64,000 nt of DNA from a virus: the IMG/VR virus record IMGVR_UViG_3300028025_000093, positions 24,650-88,649 of that record; one strand, 5' to 3'. The notes under the pieces are model-generated. The model was not told the origin of the DNA and searched no databases. It saw only the letters and a program-made list of their open reading frames with translations. The translations under genes were made by a program, and so were the position numbers. How positions within the stretch are numbered: the stretch's first letter is position 1; each line of letters starts with the position of its first letter. This document shows, one piece after another, positions 55,133 through 61,582 of this stretch.

Positions 55133-55501
55133 ATGCCTGTAGCTGCAACTGGATTTAGAATATCAAACGGCACAGACCTTAATGGTTTATTTTGGACATG
55201 GCAGGGAGACACTGGTAATCGTGGCGTAAACGATGCAAACGGTAACTGCGGATGGGCTTGCGCATGTAATGCGTGTAACTCTGCGTGTAACTGTAACTGC
55301 GGTAACTGCGATGCGGCAGACTTAGCGTTCAACGTACACGTTACTGACTGGCGTTTAAATGTATTCCGTAACACTACATACGCTGATGGTCTACGTCATG
55401 ACTCCCAAGAACAAAGTATGGGTCACTTTAAGTACTTGCGTGTAAACTGTAACTGTAACTGCGCATGTAACTGTAACTGTGCTTGTAACTGTAACTGCTA
55501 A
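55133..55501 (+). CDS. Cys-Asn repeat protein, candidate RiPP-like precursor
   Basis: A 122-residue protein with 17 cysteines. Residues 39-59 hold eight Cys in NC/AC spacing; residues 106-122 hold nine Cys, one at every second position (NCNCNCACNCNCACNCNC with the Asn 105), ending at the very C-terminus. Between them lies a normal-looking segment (VHVTDWRLNVFRNTTYADGL). Alternation puts all Cys on one face of a strand. The radical SAM/SPASM gene downstream makes thioether or other crosslinking of this protein plausible; a metal-binding or disulfide-rich virion protein is the alternative. GGAGAA precedes the ATG; the fibre gene ends one base earlier. Confidence 0.8.
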   Translation: MPVAATGFRISNGTDLNGLFWTWQGDTGNRGVNDANGNCGWACACNACNSACNCNCGNCDAADLAFNVHVTDWRLNVFRNTTYADGLRHDSQEQSMGHFKYLRVNCNCNCACNCNCACNCNC

Positions 55502-56671: not shown

Positions 56672-58144
56672 ATGAGTTTGTATAAAATGGTTCTTACTGG
56701 AGCCAATGATGTGGAACAGTATTTAATTTATGATCCAATGACTTCTGAGATCTACTGGGAAGAAACTGGTGAGCAGCCTACTCTGGAATACATTTCAAAG
56801 GGGTTGACTTACCAGATTGACTCCAAAGTGTGGACTCCAGCTAAAGTTACAAATCCCCACAATCCTGAACTTCACGGTAAGAAATCACGCAAGCCAACTA
56901 CACTTAAAATCACAATGGGTCTTAAGTGTAATTATGCGTGTTCTTACTGCAATCAAGCCCATCAGCCACATGACCCAGTAGGTGGTCCAGAAGATGCTGA
57001 AGAGTTGGTTGAAAAGATGAAAAAGAGTTTTGACTTCAACACTTATGATAAGTTTCGTTTAGAATTCTGGGGCGGTGAGCCTATGGTTTATTGGAAGACA
57101 CTAAAACCACTTGCAGAAAAACTTAAAAAAGTTTATCCGAATGCTCAATTTATGATGGTTACCAATGGTTCTTTACTAACTAGAGAAAAGATAGATTGGT
57201 TTAATCGCATGGGATTCGCTATTGGTATGTCTCACGATGGTCCACTGCATGCGCAGAATCGTGGTCCAGATCCACTAGATGAACCAAAAGCTAAAGATGC
57301 TGTAGTTTATGCGTTAAAAACTATGGGTCAAGGTAGATTTACATTCAACTGCGTATTGACACGTGAGAATGTTTCAATACCAGCTGTTCGAGATTTTATT
57401 TGCGATAAGTTGAATCGCAAAGATTTTGGTTATGATGATGTGAAAGTTGATCAAATGGAACTTCAGGTAACTACTGAAGAATTGATGTTGCCTTATGATG
57501 ATGGTGGAATGGCACATTCTTTGCAAACTCCAGATGAAAAGAAAGAAATATTACATGCACTTTTCTGGGAAACTATCCAAGGAAATAATCAGTTTAGTTG
57601 GACAGTAAACTCAAAAATTACTGGGTTCTTTGAATCTTTAGTTTATAAGAGACCTGCAGAAGTAGTTGGTCAAAAGTGTGGTATGGATAAAGAAGATAAC
57701 ATTGCTATCGATATGAAGGGTAATGTTACTACTTGCCAGAACACTTCTTCATTAACCAAACACAATTTAGGTAATATTGAAGACTTAGATAATGTTAGAT
57801 TGACTAACTCATATCACTGGTCTACACGAGCCGAATGCCCTTCTTGTCCTGTAGTTCAGTTGTGTCAAGGAGCTTGTTTGTTCCTAGAAGATAAACACTG
57901 GTCTCAAGCATGTGAGAACTTATTCTATTACAATCTTGCAATTTTAGCAGGATCTCTGTTCATAATGACTGACGGATTAATTTTGACTAGAATAGAAGGC
58001 GAGAAGATTAGGTTTGATGATGTCAAAGCACTTGATATTATTGACATCAATTTTGTTAAATCTGGTGGAACTAAAAAATCTTGGAAGGTTCGTAAGCCAA
58101 TTAACATTCCAGTAGTTTCTATTCCAGAGATGCCAGTAGTATAA
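56672..58144 (+). CDS. radical SAM/SPASM enzyme
   Basis: A 490-residue enzyme. The radical SAM cluster is C86-x3-C90-x2-C93 (CNYACSYC), with GGEP at 134-137 for SAM binding. The SPASM domain follows the consensus closely: C336, C355, then C389-x2-C392-x5-C398-x3-C402 and C414. SPASM enzymes modify peptides or proteins (sactipeptide and ranthipeptide maturases, anSME). The first 75 residues could recognise the substrate. The Cys-rich protein two genes upstream is the obvious candidate substrate. AAGGATT before the ATG. Confidence 0.92.
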   Translation: MSLYKMVLTGANDVEQYLIYDPMTSEIYWEETGEQPTLEYISKGLTYQIDSKVWTPAKVTNPHNPELHGKKSRKPTTLKITMGLKCNYACSYCNQAHQPHDPVGGPEDAEELVEKMKKSFDFNTYDKFRLEFWGGEPMVYWKTLKPLAEKLKKVYPNAQFMMVTNGSLLTREKIDWFNRMGFAIGMSHDGPLHAQNRGPDPLDEPKAKDAVVYALKTMGQGRFTFNCVLTRENVSIPAVRDFICDKLNRKDFGYDDVKVDQMELQVTTEELMLPYDDGGMAHSLQTPDEKKEILHALFWETIQGNNQFSWTVNSKITGFFESLVYKRPAEVVGQKCGMDKEDNIAIDMKGNVTTCQNTSSLTKHNLGNIEDLDNVRLTNSYHWSTRAECPSCPVVQLCQGACLFLEDKHWSQACENLFYYNLAILAGSLFIMTDGLILTRIEGEKIRFDDVKALDIIDINFVKSGGTKKSWKVRKPINIPVVSIPEMPVV

Positions 58145-58458
58145 TGGCTTTTTTGGACTGTATGATATGGGAATTGAATAAGTTCCCGAGATATGGTAGA
58201 TACCGAAACATTTATACCATATCTAATGTTTTCCATTATTGTTCTAGTACACAAGAGTATCAGAACAATAATGTTGCTATTCAGATTCCAGAATTTGAAC
58301 TTATTGCATCAAAAGCTGATCTAGAGTTTTTTTATGAATATAAGAAGCAAATTATTGAAAAAGGCATTCCTGCAATAATAAATTTAATAAATAATGATGT
58401 AGAGACATGGTCTTTAGACCTTTCAAAAGCAAAATTTTTACAACACCTTAAACGGTAG
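58144..58458 (+). CDS. small protein after radical SAM gene
   Basis: A 104-residue protein (MAFLDCMIWELNKFPRYGRY) overlapping the radical SAM gene by one base. Helical second half (ADLEFFYEYKKQIIEKGIPAII). It could be a recognition or accessory protein for the enzyme. No family recognised. Confidence 0.62.
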   Translation: MAFLDCMIWELNKFPRYGRYRNIYTISNVFHYCSSTQEYQNNNVAIQIPEFELIASKADLEFFYEYKKQIIEKGIPAIINLINNDVETWSLDLSKAKFLQHLKR

Positions 58459-58467
58459 GAGAAACAA

Positions 58468-59415
58468 ATGAGTAAAAAGCACGTAAAATGGGTTATCGCC
58501 CACGAGCCAATCGGGTTATTTCTTAAAGTAGCTGAGTCTTTCGCTAAAGAAGTAAACGAAAAAACAAATGGTCAATTTGATATTGAAGTTCTTTCTCTTT
58601 CTGCATACGCTGAGAAATACAACGCAGGTAAGAAAGTTACTAAGAACGATCTAATGCAATTGATCAATGATGGCACTATTGAAATGAGCCACATTTATAC
58701 TACATGGTTGGCAGACTACAACAAAGATTTAAACGCATTAGATTTACCTTTCCTATTCCAAGATCACGCCCACGCTGATCGTGTTTTAGAAGGCGAAATT
58801 GGTACTCAATTGTTAGCTGACGTAAGCAAGAATTCTAACATTCACGCTATGTCTTTCACTTACTCTGGTGGCTATCGTGTAGTTCCAGCAAACTTTAAAG
58901 CTGACACTGTAGACGCATGGAAATTTAAGAAAGTTCGTACTAGCCGTTCACCAGTTGCTATCGATACATTCAAGTTACTAGGTGCTAACACTTATCCAGG
59001 AATTGATCTTGAAGAAATGAACACAGCTGCACAAGCTGGCGTTATCAATGCTGGTGAGTCTACTTATGTACGTATTTTCCCACTACAGCAAAATGAAGCA
59101 TTCAAGTATGTTAATGACACTGCTCATAGCTTGTTCTTAACTTCAATCATCGTCAACAAAGACTGGATGGCTCAGTTTGACGAACAAACTCGTGAAGTTA
59201 TGGCAACTGCTGCATTTAATGCTGCACGTAAAGAGCGTCGTGAGTCTGTTGCTGATATTCCAAACATCCTTGCAGAGTGCGAAGCAAAAGGTGTTAAAGT
59301 TATCAAGATGTCTGAAAAAGAAGAACAGAAGATGAAAGATGTTACTTCTAAAGTGTACGAAATGTACGCAGACTACTTTACTCCAGGTTTAGTTGCTAAA
59401 ATTAAGCTACAGTAA
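58468..59415 (+). CDS. TRAP/DctP-like binding protein without signal peptide
   Basis: A 315-residue protein with the DctP fold: VAESFAKEVNEKTNGQFDIEVL, LPFLFQDHAHADRVLEGEIGTQLL, FKKVRTSRSPVAIDTFKLLGAN with the conserved Arg that binds a carboxylate, and ESTYVRIFPLQQNEAFKYVNDTAH. DctP proteins are periplasmic receptors of TRAP transporters, but this one starts MSKKHVKWVIAHEP without signal peptide, so it stays in the cytoplasm or becomes part of the virion. Strong site AGGAGAAA. It may bind a small carboxylate in the modification cassette. Confidence 0.82.
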   Translation: MSKKHVKWVIAHEPIGLFLKVAESFAKEVNEKTNGQFDIEVLSLSAYAEKYNAGKKVTKNDLMQLINDGTIEMSHIYTTWLADYNKDLNALDLPFLFQDHAHADRVLEGEIGTQLLADVSKNSNIHAMSFTYSGGYRVVPANFKADTVDAWKFKKVRTSRSPVAIDTFKLLGANTYPGIDLEEMNTAAQAGVINAGESTYVRIFPLQQNEAFKYVNDTAHSLFLTSIIVNKDWMAQFDEQTREVMATAAFNAARKERRESVADIPNILAECEAKGVKVIKMSEKEEQKMKDVTSKVYEMYADYFTPGLVAKIKLQ

Positions 59416-59437: not shown

Positions 59438-59464
59438 AGGGGATGTTTAGGCATCCCCTTTTTT
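59438..59464 (+). terminator. rho-independent terminator
   Basis: GGGGATG (59439-59445) and CATCCCC (59452-59458), loop TTTAGG, then six T. It should end transcripts of the DctP-like gene. Confidence 0.85.
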
Positions 59465-59475
59465 ATTGGGGATAT

Positions 59476-60555
59476 ATGAATCAAATTTTATTTTATAACA
59501 CTGGATTTGTTAGGCAAGTTATAGAACAGCAGCCTAATATTTTAGATGGATACTTGTTAGATAAAGATCTATTTCATTTTTATGATAAACATAAAATGAA
59601 CTTAAATGTAGCTTATGATAGAACAGGTAATGTCCCGCACTATTTGAATATTAAGTCTGGATTACTTCAGATACCTAAAGTTGATTCAGCTTTTAATAAA
59701 TCATTCGCTGAGTGCGTTGAGGATAGGTGTAAAGAACTATTATCTCTTGGTAAGCGAATAAATGTAGTGTGGAGTGGCGGAATAGACAGCACATTAGTTT
59801 TGTGTGCTTTGTTACACTACGCAAATGATCCCAGTCAAATAGTTGTATACGGAACGTACACATCCGTTTTAGAATCAGGTGATTTCTTAGAGAAACGAAT
59901 TATCCCCAGAGGTGTTGAGGTAAAACTTAAAGTATCTTCTCGTAGAGATTTTGATGATTGTTCATCAGATGAGATTTTTGTTACTGGGTTTTTTGGCAAC
60001 CAGCTATTTGGACCAACGGATAACTTTTCAGTAAACTCAACTGTAAAAACTGACATATCATTCTTTCATCATCAGTTCAATGGTGATCCTCTAGAGGATT
60101 ATACAAAGTATGTTGACCCAGAACTTCACGAGTTTTTGTTGCCGTGCATTAAAGCTAGCCCCAAGAAAATAGAAACGCTAAGAGATTTACGCTGGTGGCT
60201 TATATTTAATTTTGATTGGTATACTGCAGAATTTGCAACTAGAGTAAATACTAATCAGCAGAATAATCAATATCACTTTTTTAATACTGATGATTTTCAG
60301 CGTTATGTTCTAACTACAAAAGAACCATTTACTAAAGAAGTTGGTAATCCGCTTACACATCGTTGGGTAATGCGACAGTTAATTGAAGAGATGACTGGAG
60401 ACAGCAATTATGCTTGGACAAAACCAAAAGGGGTTTCCAATTTAGGAAACCCCGATCCAACATGGTTGCTTTTACTAGAAGATTATAGTGTGTTTAAATT
60501 ACCAACTACATCTTTTATAAATCAAAGCAGGATTACTGCCCAAAACCGACCTTGA
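59476..60555 (+). CDS. asparagine-synthase-like PP-loop protein
   Basis: A 359-residue protein with SGGIDS at 100-105 (INVVWSGGIDSTLVLCALL) and FFGNQLFGPTDNF, which resembles the G-G-D-E-L-F motif of asparagine synthetase B. The glutaminase domain is replaced by an unrelated N-terminal part. Related PP-loop enzymes form amide bonds or macrolactams in natural-product pathways (lasso cyclase McjC), which would suit a RiPP-type cassette; this is inference. GGGGA lies before ATG 59476; its 3' end overlaps the opposing gene by 23 bases. Confidence 0.75.
   Translation: MNQILFYNTGFVRQVIEQQPNILDGYLLDKDLFHFYDKHKMNLNVAYDRTGNVPHYLNIKSGLLQIPKVDSAFNKSFAECVEDRCKELLSLGKRINVVWSGGIDSTLVLCALLHYANDPSQIVVYGTYTSVLESGDFLEKRIIPRGVEVKLKVSSRRDFDDCSSDEIFVTGFFGNQLFGPTDNFSVNSTVKTDISFFHHQFNGDPLEDYTKYVDPELHEFLLPCIKASPKKIETLRDLRWWLIFNFDWYTAEFATRVNTNQQNNQYHFFNTDDFQRYVLTTKEPFTKEVGNPLTHRWVMRQLIEEMTGDSNYAWTKPKGVSNLGNPDPTWLLLLEDYSVFKLPTTSFINQSRITAQNRP
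60430..60453 (+). repeat. perfect inverted repeat inside a coding region
   Basis: GGGGTTTCC (60430-60438) and GGAAACCCC (60445-60453) with a 6-base spacer, inside the PP-loop gene. It could be a strong hairpin in the mRNA, or a processing or attenuation site. Confidence 0.6.
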
Positions 60556-61132
60556 TATTTAATGTAACATAGGCTTGAGTATCTAGATTTGTTTCAGTAT
60601 AACGCATTAGATATCCAGGTGTTACGAAGATTTCACCAAATCTACCACGAATTTGAAACGAAGTAGATACTAAGTTTTGTGAACATACTTGTCTAGTAGT
60701 GTGAACACCACCACGTGAATCTGCAAAATATGTTGGTGGAGTATATTCTCCAGTATGCAGAACTAATGTAAATACCAACGGGACATGCTCGTAAGCGTGC
60801 AAAGGAATGTGTTCTAATTTTTGCTGGAACATAGCATTAGAACCAATAATTAAAGGTGTATACTGCATCTCATTATTAAATTCTGGAAGATCTTGACAAA
60901 TAGTATAAACAATCTCTTTGATTTTATCTACGTATTTGTTATCTTCCATCTTGAATAGATCGTCAGTTACCGTTGTTGATACTGAATTTACTAAATCGAT
61001 AAATTCTTGATCTTGAAAAGTCAAGCCATCCATCATTTCAGGATTGATGTCAAAACTCTTAAACTGTGTTGAAAATAGTTCTTTTGCACAGCTTTCTGTT
61101 ACAAGTTTTGAGACAGGGTTAGTGTTTTCCAT
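60533..61132 (-). CDS. possible degenerate 2OG-oxygenase-fold protein
   Basis: A 199-residue protein, the only minus-strand gene among the late plus-strand genes. The end (LVLHTGEYTPPTYFADSRGGVHTTR..RGRFGEIFVTPGYLMRYTETN..AYVTLNIKVGF) has the strand order of the 2OG-Fe(II) oxygenase-like proteins at the start of the window, for example GLMVIHPGYLVHFVEPT, but the distal His is replaced (PGYLMRY). It may bind a ligand without catalysis. ATG 61132 has GGAGAT before it; the 49 upstream codons overlap the promoter. Confidence 0.55.
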   Translation of the reverse strand: MENTNPVSKLVTESCAKELFSTQFKSFDINPEMMDGLTFQDQEFIDLVNSVSTTVTDDLFKMEDNKYVDKIKEIVYTICQDLPEFNNEMQYTPLIIGSNAMFQQKLEHIPLHAYEHVPLVFTLVLHTGEYTPPTYFADSRGGVHTTRQVCSQNLVSTSFQIRGRFGEIFVTPGYLMRYTETNLDTQAYVTLNIKVGFGQ

Positions 61133-61176
61133 GGTATCTCCATAATAGGTTAAATATCGCTTCAAAGAGCTCAATC

Positions 61177-61184
61177 TATTTATA
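61177..61184 (-). promoter_or_regulatory. T4-type late promoter TATAAATA, minus strand
   Basis: Exact T4 late consensus TATAAATA, read on the minus strand, with the predicted start about 38 bases before ATG 61132. It is the best match to the T4 box in the window. Confidence 0.7.
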
Positions 61185-61211
61185 CTATTCGCAACCAGCG
61201 TTTCAAAATTC

Positions 61212-61219
61212 AATAAATA
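61212..61219 (+). promoter_or_regulatory. possible late promoter box AATAAATA
   Basis: AATAAATA lies 27 bases before the GTG start at 61247 and is divergent from the TATAAATA box at 61177-61184. Confidence 0.45.
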
Positions 61220-61246
61220 AGTATGTATATTGGGAGAAAATAAACA

Positions 61247-61582
61247 GTGGCTACAGTAACAAACCTTTACGTTGATCAAGGCGCATTTTACAGAACATAC
61301 GTGACAGTCGCTAATACTGATGGTACTCCATTAGATTTGACTGGGTTCACTGCAGCTTCTCAAATGAGAAAGTCGTATCAGTCCTCAACTGCTTACAACT
61401 TCACTACTTCTATAAGTAATCCGTCTCAGGGTAGAGTTCGAGTAGAACTATCTTCTGAGCAATCTAGGGTAATCCCAGCAGGTAAGTATCTATATGACAT
61501 AGAAGTTAGATCTCCAACAGGAGAAAGAACTAGAGTTGTAGAAGGTATTGTTTTGATCAACCCAGAAATAACAAAGATTTAA
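61247..61582 (+). CDS. BppU-like baseplate/fibre protein
   Basis: A 111-residue protein read from GTG after GGGAGAAA. The front VTNLYVDQGAFYRTYVTVANTDGTPLDLTGFTAASQMRKSY and the later GKYLYDIEVRSPTGERTRVVEGIVLI match a small Ig-like family found near fibre genes of phages, similar to the N-terminal domain of the lactococcal receptor-binding carrier. Probably anchors the fibre that follows. Confidence 0.72.
   Translation: MATVTNLYVDQGAFYRTYVTVANTDGTPLDLTGFTAASQMRKSYQSSTAYNFTTSISNPSQGRVRVELSSEQSRVIPAGKYLYDIEVRSPTGERTRVVEGIVLINPEITKI

Follow-up and report, generated by a model that had tools for sequence, protein, structure and literature searches.

Solute receptors are defined by their function outside the cytosol, and a phage gene that encodes one without an apparent means of export raises the question of what such a receptor could do inside an infected cell. 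The gene considered here lies in the window, a stretch of 64,000 nucleotides from the IMG/VR virus record IMGVR_UViG_3300028025_000093, together with the features collected in Table 1. An earlier note, made from the letters alone, had proposed a DctP-type TRAP receptor that retains its ligand-binding arginine motif, lacks a signal peptide and is kept inside the cell or virion.

Fold, export signal and ligand cleft

The ORF encodes a complete DctP (TRAP receptor) fold. The protein matches the Pfam DctP profile PF03480 (E 3.7e-44; 151.6 bits versus a cut-off of 23.4) and passes the cut-off of NF037995 (125 versus 50), while scoring below that of the narrower profile TIGR00787 dctP (118.9 versus 175.05). 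Its top sequence match in the PDB is 4p47, a TRAP DctP receptor (E 2e-20). The AlphaFold model is confident (pLDDT 95.6), and structure comparison places it nearest to solved TRAP receptors over the full length, with 4xeq aligning at a VIA-align Z of 36.1 and an rmsd of 1.9 (298 residues). The assignment of the earlier note thus holds, and the structure prediction that it had proposed as a check agrees with TRAP receptors from end to end.

Table 1. Coordinates of the receptor gene and surrounding features in the window
Feature	Position	Strand	Basis or remark
122-aa protein with C-terminal Cys-Asn repeats (CNCNCACNCNC)	55133-55501	+	conserved in 17 loci
Radical SAM/SPASM protein, like peptide maturases	56672..58144	+	PapB and DynA families below cut-off
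104-aa protein, commonest upstream neighbour of DctP	58144..58458	+	
AATAAATA, candidate T4-type late promoter element within the upstream ORF	58386..58393	+	motif enriched family-wide
AGGAG ribosome-binding site of the DctP gene	58457..58461	+	read off sequence
DctP-type receptor, 315 aa, ATG start, without signal peptide	58468..59415	+	ORF, profile, structure model
Intrinsic terminator, GGGGATG stem then T run	59438..59467	+	
AsnB-like PP-loop protein (SGGIDS)	59476..60555	+	fold weakly similar to carbapenam and asparagine synthetases
2OG-Fe(II) oxygenase-like protein	60533..61279	-	phrog_81, E 3.2e-4

The ATG opens the mature fold directly, and AGGAG and ATG come straight after an in-frame stop. 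This stop (58456-58458), the nearest one upstream and 12 nt from the start, terminates the preceding 104-aa ORF, the N-terminus of which (MAFLDCMIWELNKF) is unlike a signal peptide. An upstream start encoding a signal peptide, which the earlier note had named as the observation that would overturn its view, was looked for and not found.

The same arrangement recurs among relatives, which were sampled from IMG/VR in three rounds: 49 sequences first, next the best 80 among 303 stretches that encode a relative, and finally additions recovered with divergent queries. In all 51 family rows examined, an in-frame stop precedes the ORF start by at most 57 nt, and a signal peptide is absent from 65/65 dereplicated viral rows (from the 49 relatives and the best 80 of the 303 stretches, leaving out identical cores and fragments below 280 aa). 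In the wider set, including the divergent queries and leaving out 21 short or split loci, one locus without an ORF hit and duplicates, a signal peptide is missing from 70 of 72 full-length rows. The two flagged rows, L157 and L186, both contain the usual ATG internally, and we think that the flags are an artefact of start choice. The divergent second copy of L102, used as a scan query, recovered itself alone. Judged from these sequences, loss of the export signal is a family-wide trait and not peculiar to the window copy, and the proposal that the protein is kept inside the cell extends to its viral relatives.

Relatives in bacterial assemblies, mostly Bdellovibrionota, carry a signal peptide in 19 of 26 cases and lack it in seven. 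Two of the latter, the Bacteriovoracaceae copies L051 and L069, sit amid genes that read as chromosomal in translations inspected by eye (flagellin-, RsmE- and PrmA-like), adjoining a gene related to an MFS transporter of L052; others could be phage contigs that were binned with bacteria. The signal-peptide state clusters on the DctP tree with at least two changes; this tree comes from a short search with SH-aLRT support only, long branches and an unclean root, and was not used to number the losses. Five Bacteriovoracaceae relatives (L053-L056 and L059) show 39-47% identity and have the same cleft residues but, unlike the phage proteins, are exported. In L053 and L055 the exported receptor adjoins ABC-transporter, AMP-binding and MBOAT-type genes. 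At L055:4839-12435 genes for an NMT1-type receptor and for one small acyl-carrier-like protein also lie nearby, a gene set that we read as D-alanylation-like.

The arginine in the KVRTSRSP strand of the window protein is R157, which we take, by alignment with solved TRAP receptors, to be equivalent to Arg-147 of SiaP; the excerpted text of PMC4646407 gives Arg at that position in 96.8% of DctP receptors. The phage proteins have the whole fold, the profile and this ligand arginine in common with DctP-type TRAP receptors (PF03480; 4p47, 4xeq, SiaP). They differ in that the usual Asn after a conserved Glu is replaced by Ser or Thr. Arg157, Glu197 and Arg202 are invariant in 63/63 viral rows (divergent paralogues L039b and L102b left out), extending the arginine motif described for the window across the family. 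In the same rows variability amounts to 0.37 bits in cleft-type segments versus 1.13 bits in the outer helices, and viral and exported relatives have the majority residue in common at 45 of 60 cleft positions versus 56 of 121 helix positions, with segments assigned via homology and model strands and not via coordinates. Ten of 11 pairs have dN/dS ratios of 0.026-0.19, and the eleventh is saturated. These sequences indicate that the receptor cleft is intact across the family. A chance ORF or a decaying relic is ruled out by the dN/dS values and by the 303 IMG/VR stretches that encode relatives.

Predicted late and abundant expression

Codon usage, an only indirect predictor of protein abundance, was compared in records with a gp23-type capsid gene, namely 17 of 35 together with the window, and 11 of 35 in a second set. 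With the capsid gene of the same genome as reference, the CAI of DctP tops that of every neighbouring gene in 16 of 18 genomes. In the window genome it ranks second among 90 ORFs in 84 kb, behind only the reference capsid gene itself and ahead of the putative scaffold, sheath and tube genes (assigned by place and size). The signal is lost when the codons are redrawn from the usage of the neighbours with the protein unchanged (z >3 in 15/18 genomes); L089 and L077 are without it, and in L095 it is weak. The second set, from other lineages, comprises nine records with full-length DctP, which ranks first in eight and second in the ninth (z >5 in 9/9), and two with split DctP, in which the halves rank first and third, and second and fourth. 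Recently gained host codon usage is an unlikely source, because synonymous divergence is high (pS 0.57, window versus L005) and the signal recurs across lineages.

Of 63 DctP loci, 48 have an intrinsic terminator after the gene, compared with 39 of 935 other ORFs and none of 54 AsnB-like genes; in the second set the figures are 46/73 loci versus 18/480 other genes. In 16 of 18 genomes the capsid gene, too, has a terminator no more than 120 nt away. Upstream, the T4-type late-promoter motif NATAAATA occurs within 150 nt of DctP in 55 of 67 loci, against a background of 148/686 other ORFs and 7-11% of shuffles. It is present in 36 of the 38 loci where the 104-aa gene immediately precedes DctP and in 19 of the 29 without that gene; the second set gives 41/73 loci versus 49/446 other ORFs. 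The window copy reads AATAAATA, short of the full TATAAATA. According to the excerpted text of PMC1524935, late promoters of this kind were confined to the upstream regions of T4 late-gene orthologues. Together, codon usage, a terminator of its own and the promoter motif point to late and very high predicted expression.

Such expression would also fit a virion protein, in which the DctP fold would be present in many copies in the tail-fibre apparatus, on the capsid surface or packaged, perhaps binding a small acidic moiety exposed by the host at its surface. Export would be unneeded in that case, and the window, from a T4-like phage with gp23 capsid, baseplate and single-strand-binding genes, has DctP in a tail-fibre island, as do like-ordered loci. 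Nevertheless we consider a virion role unlikely. DctP is also found away from tail genes and adjoining metabolic genes, no fusion to a virion domain occurs among the rows seen, and the signal-peptide-less L051 and L069 lie among apparently chromosomal bacterial genes. Moreover, 81 of 153 genome pairs are more alike in DctP than in the capsid protein, and the gene therefore moves between phage lineages: L011 and 11 of the other 17 genomes are 77-84% identical in DctP, but only 36-39% in the major capsid protein. Because capsids diverge to this extent and conservation centres on the cleft, not the outer helices, a need to dock on a single virion type is not the obvious constraint. For a scaffold, another option of the earlier note, the analysis turned up no specific argument in either direction. 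A search of the phage collection returned only distant matches (best 25-26% identity), several of them in bacterial-looking records.

Neighbouring genes and the proposed capture role

The setting that the earlier note described, a late cassette next to a radical SAM enzyme, is borne out by the tail-fibre and radical SAM/SPASM genes immediately upstream. Two genes ahead of the latter, the 122-aa ORF with Cys-Asn repeats looks like a modified-peptide precursor in the tail-fibre island. Counting loci with at least two genes on either side, an AsnB-like gene lies within three genes of DctP in 46 of 57, a radical SAM gene in 33 and the 104-aa gene in 32. Elsewhere, DctP of L085 (5880-16924) sits within a gene run with two matching 2OG-Fe(II) oxygenase families and other similar-looking genes, adjoined by a radical SAM gene, and an AhpC/AhpD-like peroxide-defence pair (by eye) lies upstream of DctP at L246:509-1754, L253:709-1754 and L257:680-1728.

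The recurrent AsnB-like gene, the model of which is nearest, weakly (TM 0.35), to carbapenam synthetase and asparagine synthetase, could mean that DctP is an enzyme or a dedicated substrate carrier that makes or attaches an amide with this ligase, for example on a tail fibre. The radical SAM association would fit as well, and cytosolic receptor-profile proteins with other functions exist (PMC9602780, excerpted text). We regard this partnership as rather improbable: 11 of the 57 loci have no AsnB-like gene nearby, the cleft residues are those of exported relatives, and the predicted abundance far exceeds that of the would-be partners. Capsid-like predicted amounts are better explained by stoichiometric capture or a structural role than by catalysis.

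DctM, DctQ and TctA are absent from the window's own record of 161,882 bases, perhaps a fragment and with host genes outside its view, where the DctM and DctQ search used PF06808 and PF04290. The window protein accordingly lacks both an export signal and, in its record, the DctQ/DctM partners of a transporter receptor. Islands of other phages do hold importer genes. L037 has DctQ and DctM together with a longer DctP whose N-terminus is signal-like (Pfam), and L102 has TctA, TctB and TctC; TctC-type receptors in such islands have signal peptides (by eye), one of two tested matching PF03401. On a 244-kb phage contig (L177:808-4939), apparent DctQ, DctM and signal-peptide DctP genes, read by eye, lie directly 5' of the cytosolic DctP.

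A further possibility is that the receptor is made in the cytosol and acts outside, with lysis releasing it in bulk to bind a metabolite or signal in the surroundings. An intact cleft, no need for export and predicted expression that is both late and high would all suit this, but the adjoining importer and enzyme genes point to intracellular chemistry, and we hold release to be very unlikely.

The missing export tag and the predicted abundance suggest instead an intracellular small-molecule capture that ordinary transport leaves unexplained. We propose, at about even chances, that an exported TRAP receptor gave rise to an abundant, late-made binding protein of the cytosol that stoichiometrically holds one carboxylate-bearing metabolite. 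An ancestral exported receptor would have become cytosolic through loss of its export signal; made late and in capsid-like predicted amounts, it would close around the metabolite and act as a trap, buffer or carrier, feeding no TRAP transporter. Capture may supply the adjoining amide-ligase-like and oxygenase-like enzymes, or deny the compound to the host. We infer ligand binding and this purpose; judged by the Arg motif and the neighbouring TRAP/TTT genes, the ligand would probably be an organic acid. A small-molecule carrier, one of the options in the earlier note, would fit the cleft conservation and the presence of amide-ligase-like, oxygenase-like and organic-acid transporter genes nearby. 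Capture is preferred to a virion role because of the mobility of the gene, its cleft conservation and the importer and ligase-like neighbours; for a metabolic aid, however, such late timing would be unusual, which speaks against capture.

Split receptors and known systems

At 22 loci in 14 groups (95% of the N-half), including L242, L246, L259, L219, L206 and 17 others, DctP is encoded by two ORFs split at one place. The N-half ends near residue 153 and the C-half starts with Met-Lys-[Leu/Ile/Val]-Arg at Arg157 (eight loci fully read). Three loci combine a single N-half with two different C-halves, and L219 has two N-C pairs and a full-length paralogue of 350 aa. Assembly error is an unlikely source, because spacings vary (overlap, 4 nt, tens of nt) and duplications occur. 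Two BFVD entries from uncultured phages, named DctP/TeaA and 159 and 162 aa long, have the size of split halves and are, in our reading, just that. More tentatively, and as a minority view of our own, the whole could be a capture system: a late, capsid-level TRAP receptor stripped of export and sometimes joined by an importer, which one lineage split before the Arg strand into a combinatorial cytosolic receptor.

Among the papers listed in literature searches on phage, cytosolic or split receptors, with subscription papers mostly outside their scope, none concerned a phage DctP that is signal-peptide-less, late-made or split. The excerpted text of PMC5468394 names a TRAP receptor-like protein in the Ralstonia phages RP12 and RP31, and the RP12 structure match is only 9% identical; PMC12344293 describes another TRAP receptor, exported and with an unusual partner. 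PMC12195039, in its excerpted text, proved unrelated, its dCTP being the nucleotide.

From TRAP receptors the window protein is set apart by the lack of a signal peptide, the lack of DctQ/DctM in its own record and the predicted capsid-like late expression. Phage-encoded sponges sequester nucleotide signals, acting against defence signals, and their fold is not known to be related to DctP. Stoichiometric capture of a ligand in the infected cell would be common to these sponges and the proposed role of DctP, whereas the phage receptor gene has a late-type promoter motif. A known fold stands in a new place, with an apparently new job.

In this widespread phage family, a solute receptor resides inside the cell and is apparently made as heavily as the capsid protein, implying that stoichiometric capture of a metabolite, or a new structural use of the fold, justifies spending much of late protein synthesis on it. 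If the combinatorial reading is true, one N-half could pair with two different C-halves. As binding proteins that come naturally in two parts, the split forms would be useful in biosensors. DctP offers a testable path to a metabolite important late in infection of many aquatic phages.
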